A stretch of DNA of 37,822 nt from a virus. The position numbers and the translations under genes were made by a program. Positions 5,065-29,867 of the stretch are shown one piece after another (position 1 is the stretch's first letter; the number at the start of each line of letters is the position of its first letter). The DNA is taken from IMG/VR virus record IMGVR_UViG_3300030101_000247, positions 1-37,822 of that record; one strand, 5' to 3'. A model generated the notes under the pieces. It was not told where the DNA came from. It saw only the letters and a program-made list of their open reading frames with translations, and ran no database searches.

Positions 5065-5847
5065 ATGGCAGAAACATTAACAATGGAAAACCAGCCAGAG
5101 GTTACTTCTATCGACAACCTATCTGCAGAGGAGCAAGACTCTCTGAAGGTAGGAGAACAGATGGAAGAAGCACAAGAGCAACTTCTAGCTGGTAAATATA
5201 AGAACGCACAAGAGTTAGAGAAAGGATACCTTGAGCTACAAAAGAAATTAAATACAGATGAGCCTGAAGCACAGGCAGCAGAACCTGAAGCAGAACCAGA
5301 AGAGCAAGGTGAAGCGGAGCCTAATATACTAGATGCATTGTGGAGTCAGGCTACCTCCGAAGACGGTAAGTACGAAGGAGAAACTATAACTGCACTGAAC
5401 AAGATGACTCCTGTTGAGTTAGCACAGATGCACCTAGAATATAGAAACTCTGTAGAAGGCCAACAGCCACAAAACAAAGACTTTAGCGAAGCAGATGTCA
5501 CACAGTTAAAAGGTATTGTAGGTGGAGAAGAGAACTATTCTAATATGATTGACTGGGCACAGAAATCTCTAAACAAAGAAGAGGTAGATATGTTTGATCA
5601 AGTCATGCAAAGAGGTGATCCCTTGTCAGCATTCTTTGCAGTAAGAGCATTAGCTTTTGCTTACAACGATGCAGTTGGTTATGACGGTAACGTAGTACAA
5701 GGCAAGGCACCTAAACAAAACACAGATCAATACCGTAGTCAAGCCGAAGTGCTTGAAGCTATGTCAGATCCTCGTTATGAAAACGATCCAGCATATCGTC
5801 AAGATGTAATGGAAAAACTACAAAGATCAACAGACGTAAACTTTTGA
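5065..5847 (+). CDS. Capsid assembly (scaffolding) protein, T7 gp9-like
   Basis: This 260-aa, strongly acidic protein lies directly after the portal gene, as T7 gene 9 does. Scaffolding proteins guide polymerisation of the capsid protein into the prohead and then leave. The N-terminal half has long runs of E, Q and A (for example PEAQAAEPEAEPEEQ) and is predicted to be mostly helix. The C-terminal part is helical and ends in basic and hydrophobic residues, where scaffolds usually touch the shell. A second ATG six codons in (MENQPEV) is possible. The call comes from composition, size and gene order. Confidence 0.85.
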   Translation: MAETLTMENQPEVTSIDNLSAEEQDSLKVGEQMEEAQEQLLAGKYKNAQELEKGYLELQKKLNTDEPEAQAAEPEAEPEEQGEAEPNILDALWSQATSEDGKYEGETITALNKMTPVELAQMHLEYRNSVEGQQPQNKDFSEADVTQLKGIVGGEENYSNMIDWAQKSLNKEEVDMFDQVMQRGDPLSAFFAVRALAFAYNDAVGYDGNVVQGKAPKQNTDQYRSQAEVLEAMSDPRYENDPAYRQDVMEKLQRSTDVNF

Positions 5848-6512
5848 CACAAACCGCTTATCCACTTATAGTTATTGATAACTTTTTTGAAGACCCTGAT
5901 GCTGTCGTAGACATAGCTAACAACACAGAGTTCTTTGCGGGAGAAGTTGGTAACTATCCGGGCCAAAGATCGAAGCCAATACAAGAAGTAGATCCAAGAT
6001 TATTTCAATGGATTGGCAAACGAGTATACACCATATTCCAGACTCAAGAACCTGAGTACTGGGAACTTCAGATAACATTCCAAAAAATAAAATCCTTTGC
6101 ACCGGACGATCAGTACAACCCTTTCAACGGTGGATGGATACATACTGATAGCAAACCTTGGTTCGGTGGTGTTATATATTTAGATAAGAATCCCGAACCA
6201 GATACAGGCACATCTATATATAAACTAAAGAGAGGGTATACTTACCAATACAGAGAAGAGTTGCACGTAAAGCAAGACTTTTATCTAGGTAAAGATATAG
6301 ATACAGAAGAATACAATCAGTGTTTTAAAGACATGACTGATATGTATGAAGAAACAGTGAAGGTACACAACGTTTACAATAGGCTTATTCTGTTTGATGG
6401 TAATGCTCATCACGGAGCACAGACCTATGGAACTAAAGAACGTTTAACCATGAATTTTTTTGGCACTGAAATGCAAGGGCCAAAGCCTCCTCTGTTACGA
6501 GGAGAATGCTAA
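5844..6512 (+). CDS. Fe(II)/2-oxoglutarate-dioxygenase-like protein (DUF6445-like)
   Basis: The 222-aa product starts at a TTG that overlaps the scaffold stop (TTGA). It begins with the YPLIVIDNFFEDPDAV pattern seen in small phage oxygenase-like proteins. The iron triad appears as H100-T-D102 (GGWIHTD) and a distal H189 or H190 (GNAHHG), with R200 (KERLTMNFFG) placed to hold 2-oxoglutarate. Such enzymes hydroxylate proteins, nucleic acids or small molecules; the substrate here is unknown. A second, different family member lies at 9527-10075. Being between scaffold and capsid genes suggests late expression. Confidence 0.65.
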   Translation: MTQTAYPLIVIDNFFEDPDAVVDIANNTEFFAGEVGNYPGQRSKPIQEVDPRLFQWIGKRVYTIFQTQEPEYWELQITFQKIKSFAPDDQYNPFNGGWIHTDSKPWFGGVIYLDKNPEPDTGTSIYKLKRGYTYQYREELHVKQDFYLGKDIDTEEYNQCFKDMTDMYEETVKVHNVYNRLILFDGNAHHGAQTYGTKERLTMNFFGTEMQGPKPPLLRGEC

Positions 6513-6536: not shown

Positions 6537-6671
6537 ATGCCAATGGGAAAAGGAACTTACGGAAGTAAGAAAGGAAGGCCACCAGCAAAAGGTAAAAAGA
6601 TGAACAAAGGTTTATCTAAGTTACCAAGTGCGGTAAGAAAAAAGATACTCGGTAAGAAAGGTAAAAAATAA
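6537..6671 (+). CDS. 44-aa lysine-rich mini-protein
   Basis: The product begins MPMGKGTYGSKKGRPPAKGK and ends with a run of Lys and Gly, with about a third lysine. I recall very similar GKGTYGSK-x-GRPP mini-proteins in many marine phages; their function is not known to me. Net charge and small size suggest nucleic acid binding or packaging with the virion. The stop overlaps the next start (TAATG). It is preceded by a short gap (6513-6536) holding AGGAAA, a weak ribosome site. Confidence 0.75.
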   Translation: MPMGKGTYGSKKGRPPAKGKKMNKGLSKLPSAVRKKILGKKGKK

Positions 6672-7330
6672 TGGCTACTATTGACGACCTAGTAAATGCA
6701 CAGGCTTATCGTAGAGCAGCTATGGCAGAAGGGTTAGCAATGGGTAGAGAGATCCCTCCCGGTAAAGGAGGATCTCCCGGCCAGCCATACGAGCCTGATG
6801 AGAAGGGACCCTTTGTACCAGCACCACCACGTGATGGGCTAATGATAGCTCACCATAGAGAGCATTTTGGTGATGGCGGTGGTGACGACTTAATGAAAAA
6901 ACTTATGGCAGATCCGACGTTAAATGAGTCTGATTTCCAACGTATCTTAGGACCTGACTATAAGAAAAAAATCCAGCAGTATCAGCAGAATCAAAGTATG
7001 CTAATCTCTGGTGCTCAGGATCTAGACAGTAAAACAAATCCATTACAAGATGGCACCTTTCTAGATGAAGATGGAAACCGATACCTATGGTCTCCACGAG
7101 AACAAAAATTTTTAGACATGGGACCATATGATCCAGACGTACATGGACTACCTATACCCTTGGCTAAGAAGAATAATATGATGATAGCTTCTCACGACAA
7201 TCGACCGTTCAAGTCAGTACCAGCAACAGGACCGAGTAGTGATACCATGGCTCCTGATTGGCTGATTGATTATATGAATAGAAAAGACGAGAACCTATTT
7301 CAAATCCAAGACAGATTAAAAAGAGTCTAA
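6671..7330 (+). CDS. 219-aa protein of unknown function
   Basis: The start overlaps the stop of the upstream mini-protein (TAATG). The protein has a helical N-terminus (DDLVNAQAYRRAAMAEGL), a Pro/Gly-rich linker (PPGKGGSPGQPYEPDEKGP), and two similar motifs, GLMIAHHREHFGDGG and NMMIASHDNRPF, which may be a repeated element. The rest is hydrophilic. No signal peptide or transmembrane segment is visible, and I do not recognise the family. Its place among structural genes suggests a minor virion or assembly protein. Confidence 0.7.
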   Translation: MATIDDLVNAQAYRRAAMAEGLAMGREIPPGKGGSPGQPYEPDEKGPFVPAPPRDGLMIAHHREHFGDGGGDDLMKKLMADPTLNESDFQRILGPDYKKKIQQYQQNQSMLISGAQDLDSKTNPLQDGTFLDEDGNRYLWSPREQKFLDMGPYDPDVHGLPIPLAKKNNMMIASHDNRPFKSVPATGPSSDTMAPDWLIDYMNRKDENLFQIQDRLKRV

Positions 7331-7332
7331 CT

Positions 7333-7581
7333 ATGGCAGTCAAAAAGAAGAATGTTTCACTTAAGATCGGCAAGCATAAGAGCAGAAAAGGAGGTCTCAC
7401 GGCAGCTGGTAGGGCTAAGTATAACAGGGCTACCGGCTCTAACCTTAAAGCCCCACAGCCCGGCGGAGGCCCACGTAAAAAATCCTTCTGTGCTAGATTC
7501 AAAGGCATGAAAGGGCCGATGAAGAAACCGAACGGCAAGCCTACACGTAAGGCACTTGCCATGAGAAGATGGAAATGTTAA
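7333..7581 (+). CDS. DUF6321-like basic phage protein
   Basis: The 82-aa protein carries KGGLTAAGRAKYNRATGSNL, then KAPQPGG, KSFCARFKGMKGPM and a C-terminal KPTRKALAMRRWKC. This pattern (GLTA-AGR-KYNRATG-NLKAP and KSFCARM.GVKGPM) is a widespread marine phage family I associate with DUF6321. It is strongly basic with two conserved cysteines (one at the C-terminus). No biochemical role is known to me; DNA or RNA binding is an inference from charge. It starts two bases after the preceding stop and is part of the mini-protein run. Confidence 0.8.
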   Translation: MAVKKKNVSLKIGKHKSRKGGLTAAGRAKYNRATGSNLKAPQPGGGPRKKSFCARFKGMKGPMKKPNGKPTRKALAMRRWKC

Positions 7582-7582
7582 A

Positions 7583-7732
7583 ATGAAACTAACACCACGA
7601 CAACAAGCTACTCTTAAAAAACATGCCGAGCATCATTCTAAAAAACACATGGCAATGATGCGTAAAGATATGAGAGGTGGCATGAGCTTTACAGCGGCAC
7701 ACAAAAAAGCACAAAAAGCAGTAGGAAAATGA
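7583..7732 (+). CDS. 49-aa His/Lys/Met-rich mini-protein
   Basis: The product starts MKLTPRQQATLKKHAEHHSK and continues through KKHMAMMRKDM and a C-terminal FTAAHKKAQKAVGK. It has six histidines and six methionines in 49 residues and is very basic. Near-identical small proteins (MKLT-RQQ, KHHSKKHM, MR) are common in marine phages; the role is unknown to me. It lies one base after DUF6321-like, and its stop overlaps the next start (ATGA). Confidence 0.75.
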   Translation: MKLTPRQQATLKKHAEHHSKKHMAMMRKDMRGGMSFTAAHKKAQKAVGK

Positions 7733-7785
7733 AAAAGAAAAAATCACATTCTTGTACATGCAAACATGGAGGTAAGAAACGCTAA
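7729..7785 (+). CDS. 18-aa Cys/His/Lys peptide
   Basis: The reading frame is only 18 codons, MKKKKSHSCTCKHGGKKR. It overlaps the preceding gene by ATGA and the next gene by TAATG, so the tight chain of stop/start overlaps supports real translation. The H-x-C-x-C-x-H core could bind a metal ion, and the lysine ends could bind nucleic acid; both are inferences. It is far below normal gene-calling limits. Confidence 0.5.
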   Translation: MKKKKSHSCTCKHGGKKR

Positions 7786-7835
7786 TGCCTAAGAAGAAAA
7801 AGAAAGGAACTAAACCTACAACCAAGAGATACTAA
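7785..7835 (+). CDS. 16-aa lysine-rich peptide
   Basis: This frame encodes MPKKKKKGTKPTTKRY and is joined by TAATG overlaps at both ends, so no nucleotide between 7583 and 7999 is left uncoded except by overlap. Its existence is inferred mainly from that tiling. Nothing about function can be said beyond strong positive charge. Confidence 0.45.
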   Translation: MPKKKKKGTKPTTKRY

Positions 7836-7999
7836 TGGCTGCTAAACGAGGACTATACGCTAACATACATGCAAAGCGTAAGCGTATCAAAGCCGGCTCT
7901 GGTGAGAAGATGCGGAAGGTGGGAGCTAAAGGTGCTCCTACTGCAGCTAACTTTAAACGTGCTGCAAAGACAGCTAAGGGTAGAAAGAAGAAGAAGTAA
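7835..7999 (+). CDS. 54-aa basic mini-protein (GLYANIHAKRKRI family)
   Basis: The sequence starts MAAKRGLYANIHAKRKRI and includes KAGSGEKMRKVGAKGAPTA, a signature I recognise from small proteins in many marine phages. It ends in KGRKKKK. The function is unknown to me. The TAATG start overlap places it in the coupled run. After its TAA, the +1 frame stays open for 28 more codons (see the finding at 7994-8084), so a longer frameshifted product is possible. Confidence 0.78.
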   Translation: MAAKRGLYANIHAKRKRIKAGSGEKMRKVGAKGAPTAANFKRAAKTAKGRKKKK

Positions 8000-8061
8000 T
8001 CGTGCCGCCGGCCCGAATCGTATCGTACCCGGCATACGTACTTACTACCCAAAACGAACTA

Positions 8062-8262
8062 ATGATTACTACCGAATACGGTAAACAAAATATTTTTCCT
8101 AACGAAACTCCAGCGAGAGTTATCGATAACTATCCAATTAACACCAACCCTATTATGACAAACGAAGCAGAAAGATTTAATGGCTGGGCAGCAATGCTCG
8201 GTTTCGTAGCAGCAATCGGTGCATACGCAACAACAGGACAAATTATACCCGGCATTTTTTAA
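8062..8262 (+). CDS. hli: High-light-inducible protein (chlorophyll-binding, one membrane helix)
   Basis: The 66-aa product ends with the Hli signature AERFNGWAAMLGFVAAIG followed by AYATTGQIIPGIF, the ending shared by cyanophage and multicopy Prochlorococcus Hli proteins. Hli proteins sit in the thylakoid membrane, bind chlorophyll and carotenoid and protect photosystem II. The usual E-x-x-N-x-R has W where R is common. I chose ATG 8062; a GTG at 8002 in the same frame would give 86 aa. It ends immediately before psbA, so the two are surely co-transcribed and would support host photosynthesis in infection. Confidence 0.92.
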   Translation: MITTEYGKQNIFPNETPARVIDNYPINTNPIMTNEAERFNGWAAMLGFVAAIGAYATTGQIIPGIF

Positions 8263-10376: not shown

Positions 10377-11549
10377 ATGGCTCAACAGAATAGCACATTG
10401 ACCACGGCTCTTACACGTCCGGGTCAACTTAATAGTGCCGGTGATTCCCGTGCACTTTATTTAAAGCTGTTCAGTGGAGAGATGTTCAAAGGCTTCCAGC
10501 ATGAAACTATTGCTAGAGACCTTGTAATGAAGAGAACCCTTACTAACGGTAAGAGTCTCCAGTTCATCTACACTGGACGCACAAAAGCCGAGTATCATAC
10601 ACCCGGCAACAGCATACTAGGTAACACAGATGGTGCACCACCAGTAGCTGAGAAAACCATTACAATCGATGACCTATTAATCAGTTCAGCGTTTGTATAT
10701 GAGCTAGATGAAACACTAGCACACTATGAATTGAGAGGAGAGATTTCCAAGAAGATTGGTTATGCTCTTGCACAAAAGTACGATAGACTTATCTTCAGAG
10801 CTATCGCTAAAGGTGCTAGACAAGCTTCTCCAGTTTCTAAGTCTGGTTTTGTAGAGCCCGGCGGAACACAAATCCGTGTCGGTACTTCTGCACAGGCTAA
10901 CAACGCATACGACTCAGCTAAGCTAATAGAAGCATTCTATGATGCTGCTGCTGCCCTTGACGAAAAGGGAATTTCTACTGATGGTAGAGTCGCTGTGTTG
11001 AACCCAAGACAATACTACGAATTGATACAAGCTGTCGGTTCTAACGGTCTTGTCAACAGAGACGCACAAGGTACAGCGTTACAGTCCGGAAACGGAATCA
11101 TTGAGATTGCAGGCATCAAGATCTTCAAGTCAATGAACATCCCATTCTTCGGATCATACGGTACTAAGTACGGATCTGCGTCTGCAACAAACCCCGGTGT
11201 AGCAGATCCCGGAAACACAGGTTCCTTTATTGGAGAGACTGCAGAGGACGGTAGAAAGTCCGTAACAGGTCTTAACAATAACTATGGTAACGCAACAGAT
11301 TTCGCTAACAGCTGCGGACTAATCTTCCAAAAGGAAGCCGCTGGTGTTGTAGAAGCTATCGGACCACAGGTTCAGATTACTTCTGGCGACGTTTCAGTTG
11401 TCTACCAAGGTGATGTGATTCTAGGACGTCTTGCAATGGGTGCAGACTTCTTAAACCCTGCTGCATGCGTAGAGCTTGTTGCTGGTGCTGCTACTGGATC
11501 TACCGGTAACGCAACATTCGGTAACACATACCCAGAAAACAGCAACTAA
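10377..11549 (+). CDS. Major capsid protein, T7 gp10-like
   Basis: The 390-aa protein fits the T7 gp10A family (about 345-400 aa, HK97 fold). Recognisable elements are the N-terminal domain with LYLKLFSGEMFKGFQHETIA, the loop LTNGKSLQFIYTGRTKAEYH, TPGNSILG, the ITIDDLLISSAFVYELDE strand and EISKKIGYALAQKYD helix, and AGIKIFKSMNIPFFG near the centre. Hundreds of copies build the shell. A strong intrinsic terminator follows 15 bases after the stop, as in T7, which allows high capsid output relative to downstream genes. Confidence 0.95.
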   Translation: MAQQNSTLTTALTRPGQLNSAGDSRALYLKLFSGEMFKGFQHETIARDLVMKRTLTNGKSLQFIYTGRTKAEYHTPGNSILGNTDGAPPVAEKTITIDDLLISSAFVYELDETLAHYELRGEISKKIGYALAQKYDRLIFRAIAKGARQASPVSKSGFVEPGGTQIRVGTSAQANNAYDSAKLIEAFYDAAAALDEKGISTDGRVAVLNPRQYYELIQAVGSNGLVNRDAQGTALQSGNGIIEIAGIKIFKSMNIPFFGSYGTKYGSASATNPGVADPGNTGSFIGETAEDGRKSVTGLNNNYGNATDFANSCGLIFQKEAAGVVEAIGPQVQITSGDVSVVYQGDVILGRLAMGADFLNPAACVELVAGAATGSTGNATFGNTYPENSN

Positions 11550-29031: not shown

Positions 29032-29294
29032 CAGATACAAGAGTAATACCTAAGAAAGCTGGCGAGGAAAGTTTTAACGAACTCCACTACCTTGTTACGC
29101 AAGAGTTCTTACGTAAAATAAAGTGTGGCGAAGCAAAAACTCAAGACTTAAAAGCAGCATGTGATTGGCTAAAAACTAATGACATAACAGGTGTTGCTCT
29201 TGAAGGTAGCCCACTTGACAAACTAGCTTCGATAATACCGAAGGTAGATCCAGAATTAGTAAAGAGCAGACTTTATGGCAAGACCCGGACCTAA
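29028..29294 (+). CDS. Terminase small subunit, T7 gp18-like
   Basis: The 88-aa length equals T7 gp18 (89 aa) and the gene lies just before the packaging block. It includes ESFNELHYLVTQEFLRKIK, KTQDLKAACDWLKTNDITG and SPLDKLASIIPKV, the last resembling the ending of the gp18 family. Small terminases bind the concatemer and the large subunit to start packaging. It overlaps the next gene by 20 bases in another frame. Confidence 0.82.
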   Translation: MTDTRVIPKKAGEESFNELHYLVTQEFLRKIKCGEAKTQDLKAACDWLKTNDITGVALEGSPLDKLASIIPKVDPELVKSRLYGKTRT

Positions 29295-29541
29295 ACTAAG
29301 CAAGAACCCCGGTAGAACTGCAAGATTCTACAGAAAGAACAAAGAGTCACGTGAGAAGCATAGACGCACACAGCGAGCTATCAACAGTACACCAGAGAAG
29401 AAAGCGTACAGACGTGATCTACTTAAGATACGTAGAGAGCGTAAACCCGGCAGCCAAACAGATATGTCACATAAAGGTGGCAGAGTGGTTGCTGAATCAC
29501 GCAAAGCAAACCGTGGACGTGGCGGAGCACGACGAACTTAA
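29275..29541 (+). CDS. Basic 88-aa marine phage protein
   Basis: It begins MARPGPKLSKNPGRTARFYR and continues with basic, mostly hydrophilic sequence, with SREKHRRTQRAINSTPEKKA, and ends in RGGARRT. I recall similar MARPG(P)-K-NP proteins of marine phages. About a third of the residues are K or R, so it may bind DNA. Its overlap with the small terminase and with the HNH gene (TAATG) places it in the packaging operon. No nuclease motif is visible. Confidence 0.75.
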   Translation: MARPGPKLSKNPGRTARFYRKNKESREKHRRTQRAINSTPEKKAYRRDLLKIRRERKPGSQTDMSHKGGRVVAESRKANRGRGGARRT

Positions 29542-29867
29542 TGACACCATTACTACCAACACCTGATTACTATTTACACAACCTAATAACCATGACAAGT
29601 TCAGAGTCAAAAAGACTATGGAGAAGAGCTATAAAAGAGCATTTTAATTGTCAATGTGTTTATTGCGGAGGATTTTATGAACTACACAACCTTACAATCG
29701 ACCATGTACAACCTAAGAGCAAGGGTGGTCAAAGCGTTACGAGGAATGTTGTACCCTCGTGTACCAGATGCAATCAGGCGAAAGGTAGCACTCACTGGCT
29801 CGACTGGATGAGGTCGACATTCGGACAGACCGAGCGAGAACAAACCATACTACAGCATATACAATGA
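29541..29867 (+). CDS. HNH endonuclease with Cys4 zinc site
   Basis: The 108-aa product has C39-x2-C42 (CVYCG), D54-H55 (LTIDHVQPKSKGG), N69 and C74-x2-C77 (SCTRCNQAKG), the complete HNH layout with a zinc pair. A later start at 29592 (MTSSESK) would still keep it whole. HNH proteins beside terminase often help cut DNA during packaging (as in cos-type phages) or act as homing nucleases. The TAATG overlap shows coupling to the preceding gene. Confidence 0.88.
   Translation: MTPLLPTPDYYLHNLITMTSSESKRLWRRAIKEHFNCQCVYCGGFYELHNLTIDHVQPKSKGGQSVTRNVVPSCTRCNQAKGSTHWLDWMRSTFGQTEREQTILQHIQ

Follow-up and report, generated by a model that had tools for sequence, protein, structure and literature searches.

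Tiny lysine-rich proteins encoded between the scaffold and capsid genes of a T7-like marine cyanophage as candidate internal head proteins

In the heads of T7-like phages, the internal core proteins are a few large proteins that build the ejection channel. The internal proteins of phage T4 (IPI, IPII and IPIII) are small and basic, are made with the head genes and are each present in about 300 copies (PMC9026906). Contacts between their lysines and the phosphates of DNA are described (PMC3012670), and prepackaged internal proteins speed T4 packaging (PMC7697877). Targeting to the T4 capsid depends on residues 4 and 7 and processing on residues 8 and 10, with gp21 cutting after L/I-x-E (PMC9026906), and the IPII N-terminus MKTYQEFIAEA was confirmed in T4 records. 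The chlorovirus PBCV-1 also packages many basic proteins with its DNA, including the basic virion DNA-binding proteins A278L, A282L and A437L (PMC3281028), though it is a eukaryotic virus with a different mode of packaging and is likened here by kind, not by homology. For phages, a 2012 paper reported no evidence that basic proteins have a large share in neutralising packaged DNA (PMC3281028).

The window analysed here, a virus record taken at its whole length of 37,822 bases, has T7-like head genes, with profile matches for a scaffold and a major capsid protein, and is the genome of a T7-like cyanopodovirus, that is, a marine cyanophage-like virus (Table 1). Six very basic frames (p44, p82, p49, p18, p16 and p54, named by their length in amino acids) lie between these two genes, as do hli and psbA, the same arrangement as in cultured cyanopodoviruses. 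The positions of the six frames and of the 219-aa gene among them, together with the ATGA and TAATG junctions described in the first-pass annotation, were confirmed: TAATG occurs at 6671, 7785 and 7835 and ATGA at 7729, and p49 begins at 7583, one base past a stop. Lysine and arginine make up 26–50% of the six proteins against a median of 12% for the 50 predicted genes, among which the cassette frames take six of the top seven places. The proteins are small (16–82 aa) and basic (pI 10.4–12.0), with a summed net charge of +88, and differ from the T7 core proteins in being tiny, lysine-rich and encoded between scaffold and capsid genes. Dinucleotide shuffling of the window produced chains of at least four small ATG frames joined by ATGA or TAATG in 2% of cases; judged by conservation among relatives, which is a stronger test than shuffling, the six frames are not random open reading frames.

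Table 1. Features of the cassette and its neighbourhood in the window.
Feature	Coordinates	Strand	Matches and remarks
Scaffold/capsid assembly protein, upstream of cassette	5065..5847	+	phrog_1052 head assembly, E 1e-45; Pfam Phage_T7_Capsid, E 5e-8
p44, 44-aa basic protein, MPMGKGTYGSKxGRP family with AT-hook-like G-R-P core	6537..6671	+	31 distinct family members
219-aa gene interrupting the cassette, not basic	6671..7330	+	TAATG-joined to p44; only 4 relatives in viral contigs
p82, 82-aa basic protein, DUF6321	7333..7581	+	PF19846, E 3.6e-25
p49, 49-aa basic protein, His-rich family, predicted three-helix	7583..7732	+	phrog_31838, E 5e-10
p18, 18-aa micro-gene	7729..7785	+	ATGA overlap with p49; family in 68 distinct contexts
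p16, 16-aa micro-frame	7785..7835	+	TAATG overlaps on both sides; one relative
p54, 54-aa basic protein	7835..7999	+	phrog_16028, E 2e-27; phrog_11180, E 4e-7
High-light-inducible (hli) gene, downstream of cassette	8002..8262	+	phrog_178, E 5e-25
Major capsid protein, downstream	10377..11549	+	Pfam Gp10A-like, E 6e-75

Several other genes of the window may be recorded here. A DUF6445 protein (5844–6512) overlaps the scaffold gene by four bases just upstream of the cassette, matches phrog_1644 'minor coat protein' and has an H-x-D...H pattern resembling 2OG-Fe(II) oxygenases; a 2OG-Fe(II) oxygenase (PF13759, 9482–10075) lies between psbA and the major capsid gene. The 219-aa protein contains two similar motifs, LMIAHHREHFGDGG and MMIASHDNRPF. 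The seventh gene rich in lysine and arginine (29275–29541, 88 aa, net charge +23, phrog_6437) lies directly 5′ of an HNH-endonuclease-like ORF (29541–29867).

p82 is a member of DUF6321, matching the full Pfam model (positions 1–72 of 72) with 88.8 bits against a curated cut-off of 28.5. At least 597 relatives were present in viral contigs, DUF6321 turned up in hundreds of marine phage records (146 starting from p82 and 506 starting from a T4-like homologue), and 15 columns were invariant across 31 diverse members. For p54, at least 589 relatives were found in viral contigs, with 84 annotated phage records in the family, and both p82 and p54 are conserved in phages of cyanobacteria, SAR11, roseobacters and Methylophilales. 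PHROGs 10346, 727, 3477 and 11180, set beside DUF6321 among the closest known families, are listed as of unknown function, and the literature search for DUF6321 returned no paper naming it. The p54 and p82 domains both occur in phrog_11180 and phrog_28131, whereas the window encodes them as separate genes, for which a head role is proposed here. No solved structure matching p82 by sequence was found, and its predicted structure was mostly loose or unfolded (pLDDT 65), a confidence too low for structure search. The DUF6321 proteins of MinM2 and Greip (L166:2465-2710 and L167:2465-2716) are labelled 'RecA-like recombination protein'; this label, apparently mistransferred, was set aside because these proteins have 81–83 aa and consist of DUF6321 alone.

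The p49 family, with 172 relatives in viral contigs, has five invariant histidines, and comparison of p49 with two relatives gave pS of 0.51–0.64 and pN of about 0.10–0.12. AlphaFold2 predicted p49 as a firm three-helix domain (helices 5–15, 20–31 and 36–46; pLDDT 95), but because comparison of this fold with the PDB gave no significant match (best E 3.1; best VIA Z 4.0), no function was drawn for it. p44 carries K-K-G-R-P, of which GRP was retained in all 31 distinct relatives, but the Pfam scan at E 0.1 did not match it to the AT-hook. The 54-, 49- and 44-aa proteins are members of widespread phage families; the first-pass annotation had remarked that such small proteins recur in marine phages.

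The composition of the cassette varies, with gene order shifting and other small basic families coming and going between relatives. Among the 39 p82 loci with enough flanking sequence, p54 was present in at least 21 and an 18-aa-type frame in at least 24, both tallies being lower bounds obtained by motif matching. The p54 and p82 domains are fused in one protein in T4-like cyanophages (phrog_11180 proteins), and the p44 and p49 families are fused in contigs L238 and L240; these fusions support the joint role that had been suggested from the dense tiling of the genes. In another cyanopodovirus contig (L186:2837-3398), a PSAYAN-type protein (phrog_27331) and DUF5872 occupy the same cassette position, and DUF5872 has also been reported from an algal giant virus (PMC12085832).

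The DUF6321 proteins of T4-like cyanophages carry this domain at their C-terminus, and their genes often stand beside terminase genes, as in S-CRM01, S-CREM2, S-SM1 and DSL-LC05. p54 shared 59% identity with the N-terminal domain that directly follows the targeting sequence in a T4-like cyanophage protein. Many fusions of p54 and DUF6321 start with MRDYKEFKELCE/AKRGLYANIHAKRKRG or MKTYSQFIEE/GKKKGLWDNIHAKRKRG (slash, predicted cleavage), a putative targeting sequence that resembles the one on the T4 internal proteins and has a predicted cleavage site of the L/I-x-E type. The IPII-like motif was present at the N-terminus of all 19 distinct fusions, which are related, not independent, sequences from T4-like cyanophage loci with p54 within the first 60 residues, versus 8 of 359 other ORFs. 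The predicted cleavage leaves three to four residues ahead of G-L-Y, and in 96 of 102 standalone p54 proteins the initial Met lies three to five residues ahead of G-L-Y; the p54 of podoviruses therefore resembles the processed, mature protein. No targeting motif stood directly ahead of p54 in 8 of 26 long p54-bearing ORFs, and, of 47 long DUF6321 proteins lacking p54 at the N-terminus, just 3 had one. The six proteins of the window start directly with their domains and carry no targeting sequence, so that another route of entry, by affinity for the scaffold or for DNA, must be assumed for them.

A mass-spectrometric virion proteome with coordinates exists for Synechococcus phage S-CREM2, in which gp137 was detected in purified virions with four unique peptides and gp160 with seven (PMC10665884 Table 3). 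gp137 is the sole DUF6321 gene of this phage, with the domain at its C-terminus (E 3.5e-10), though coverage was just 4.1% and its peptides are not known to fall inside DUF6321; gp160 is the sole gene with sister basic domains. For the N-terminus of gp160 (L344:3943-4836), the PHROG match is phrog_696 'major head protein' (E 5e-10), though the protein is a string of basic domains, given which the phrog_696 name may be wrong. A relaxed targeting motif, loosened after gp136 was seen, occurred in three S-CREM2 genes (SAM hydrolase, gp136 and cytidylyltransferase), all in the virion proteome, and in none of the 169 other genes (Fisher p = 0.010), whereas the original motif gave one virion gene versus no other gene (p = 0.22). 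The SAM hydrolase found in virions (ORF6; L349:3837-5081, minus strand) starts with the targeting-like MKDFDSFLEE, which suggests packaging and injection of this enzyme. No podoviral virion proteome with cassette proteins was found in the literature: the P-SCSP1u cryo-EM paper contains no mass-spectrometry text, the P-SSP7 purification paper contains no proteome, and the S-SCSM1 and S-CREM1 proteomes name proteins only in figures or supplements. Because trypsin breaks down peptides this rich in lysine, past shotgun studies could have overlooked them. T4-GC119, called 'structural protein' in S-E7 but 'hypothetical' in S-SM1, was dropped as evidence.

Relatives in larger cyanophages either occur in virions or bear a signal for packaging into the head, so the cassette proteins most likely enter the head with the DNA. 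On balance, we lean towards the reading that they are internal head proteins, held within the capsid and attached to DNA through their lysines, offsetting part of its charge. The position of the genes between scaffold and capsid genes, or beside terminase genes, the fusions and the summed charge also speak for this reading, whereas the DUF6321 genes of Greip and LMM01, which do not adjoin head genes, speak against it. A virion or DNA role had been put forward in the first-pass annotation as DNA condensation or virion lubrication; the targeting sequences and the virion mass spectrometry, both of homologues, support such a role, nothing was found in support of lubrication, and DNA condensation is inferred, as is DNA binding, the latter only from the charge of the proteins and the T4 precedent. 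The following scenario may be proposed. The cassette proteins would be made late, their translation being coupled and accompanying that of the scaffold, and would enter the procapsid together with the scaffold. They would then stay in the finished head, their lysines binding the incoming DNA and offsetting part of its charge; as an illustration, an assumed 300 copies of each protein at +88 for the set would supply about 26,000 positive charges, to be set against about 75,600 phosphates, or about one-third. The cassette would thereby give podoviruses an equivalent of the T4 internal proteins in the form of separate tiny genes, with the T4-like cyanophages stringing the same domains together.

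We favour the view that the cassette proteins work like T4 internal proteins, and do not claim that they are T4 internal proteins, because the proteins of the window lack a targeting sequence. They are also far smaller than the T4 proteins and belong to a T7-like genome, and Pfam and PHROG scans gave no IPI, IPII or IPIII family match to these very short proteins. Tentatively, and as a possibility that we regard as doubtful, marine phages may have in common a modular set of small domains rich in lysine (p44, p82/DUF6321, p54, p49, p18, DUF5872-like and 'PSAYAS') forming a chromatin-like packaging system, which podoviruses would encode as separate micro-genes and T4-like cyanophages as large, targeted, protease-processed virion proteins. 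A place for DUF6321 inside the head, if true, would bear on whether phages hold packaged DNA with their own basic proteins, for which evidence is said to be lacking (PMC3281028), and would give a testable role to many 'hypothetical' genes.

The cassette proteins might instead be packaged in the head but do their work after injection, being ejected with the DNA and acting on host nucleic acids, defence enzymes or ribosomes; T4 IPI, for example, blocks a restriction enzyme. The T4 internal proteins are defence proteins of diverse kinds whose one common feature is the targeting sequence (PMC3012670), the same kind of motif is present on the S-CREM2 SAM hydrolase and cytidylyltransferase, and cassette gene content differs strongly among close relatives, as in an arms race. 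However, the retention of p82 and p54 across phages of such different hosts argues for a general task, the invariant DUF6321 positions also count against such a role, and we consider a post-injection role unlikely. A role restricted to the infected cell, in which the proteins would act late by binding RNA or replicating DNA and would not be virion parts, appears rather improbable: proteins so small and basic could attach to nucleic acid of any kind, and the DUF6321 genes of Greip and LMM01 lie away from annotated head genes, but the targeting motif on fused homologues, the homologous domains in purified virions and the cassette's position between scaffold and capsid genes all point to the head. 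We think it very unlikely that the proteins, instead of binding DNA, cement or decorate the capsid on its outer or inner face, since the adjoining capsid genes and the 'minor coat protein' match of the neighbouring DUF6445 protein are set against a largely unfolded prediction for p82, an extreme lysine content and a targeting sequence on fused homologues that points to the head interior.

The two smallest frames fared differently when checked for conservation. The p18 family was found in 68 distinct contexts, with a one-base overlap on the upstream side in 48 and with the next start in 55, and these conserved overlaps support the coupled translation that had been suspected from the tiling. In 13 aligned members, picked by position and then by a C-G-C core, pS was 0.62 and pN 0.16 in frame, compared with 0.21–0.22 and 0.25–0.26, respectively, in the two shifted frames. 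By these sequence measures, p18 is a conserved micro-gene under purifying selection. Frames of this type, such as MAHKKGSKCGCKHGGKKR or MAHKGKGSCGSKGKGGKKGYR, directly follow p82 in many relatives, or else occupy another place in the cassette. p16 had one convincing relative, MTKKKKKGTGTKTKGY, TAATG-joined 3′ of the p49 gene in contig L049 (L049:3389), and the reality of the p16 frame is thus less certain. That the two frames are merely leaders or spacers coupling translation to p54, hli and psbA is highly improbable, since the conserved one-base overlaps on both sides would suit such a role but the p18 peptide is conserved despite many synonymous changes and its frame moves between different neighbours; this argument bears on p18, and p16 might still be such a spacer.

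A possible H-C-C-H metal site, noted earlier in p18 and p16, is present in the window sequence but did not hold up among relatives: the first His is not conserved, and while one subgroup retains C-x-C-x-H, the other has a single Cys. A zinc-binding micro-protein with four conserved ligands is therefore not supported. A p18-family gene is also present in S-TIP37 (L175:4941, MAHKGKGSCKGGKKGGYKK), where it is unannotated in the GenBank record, and a conserved 18-aa gene carried by many phages and missed by annotation offers a clean case for micro-protein study.
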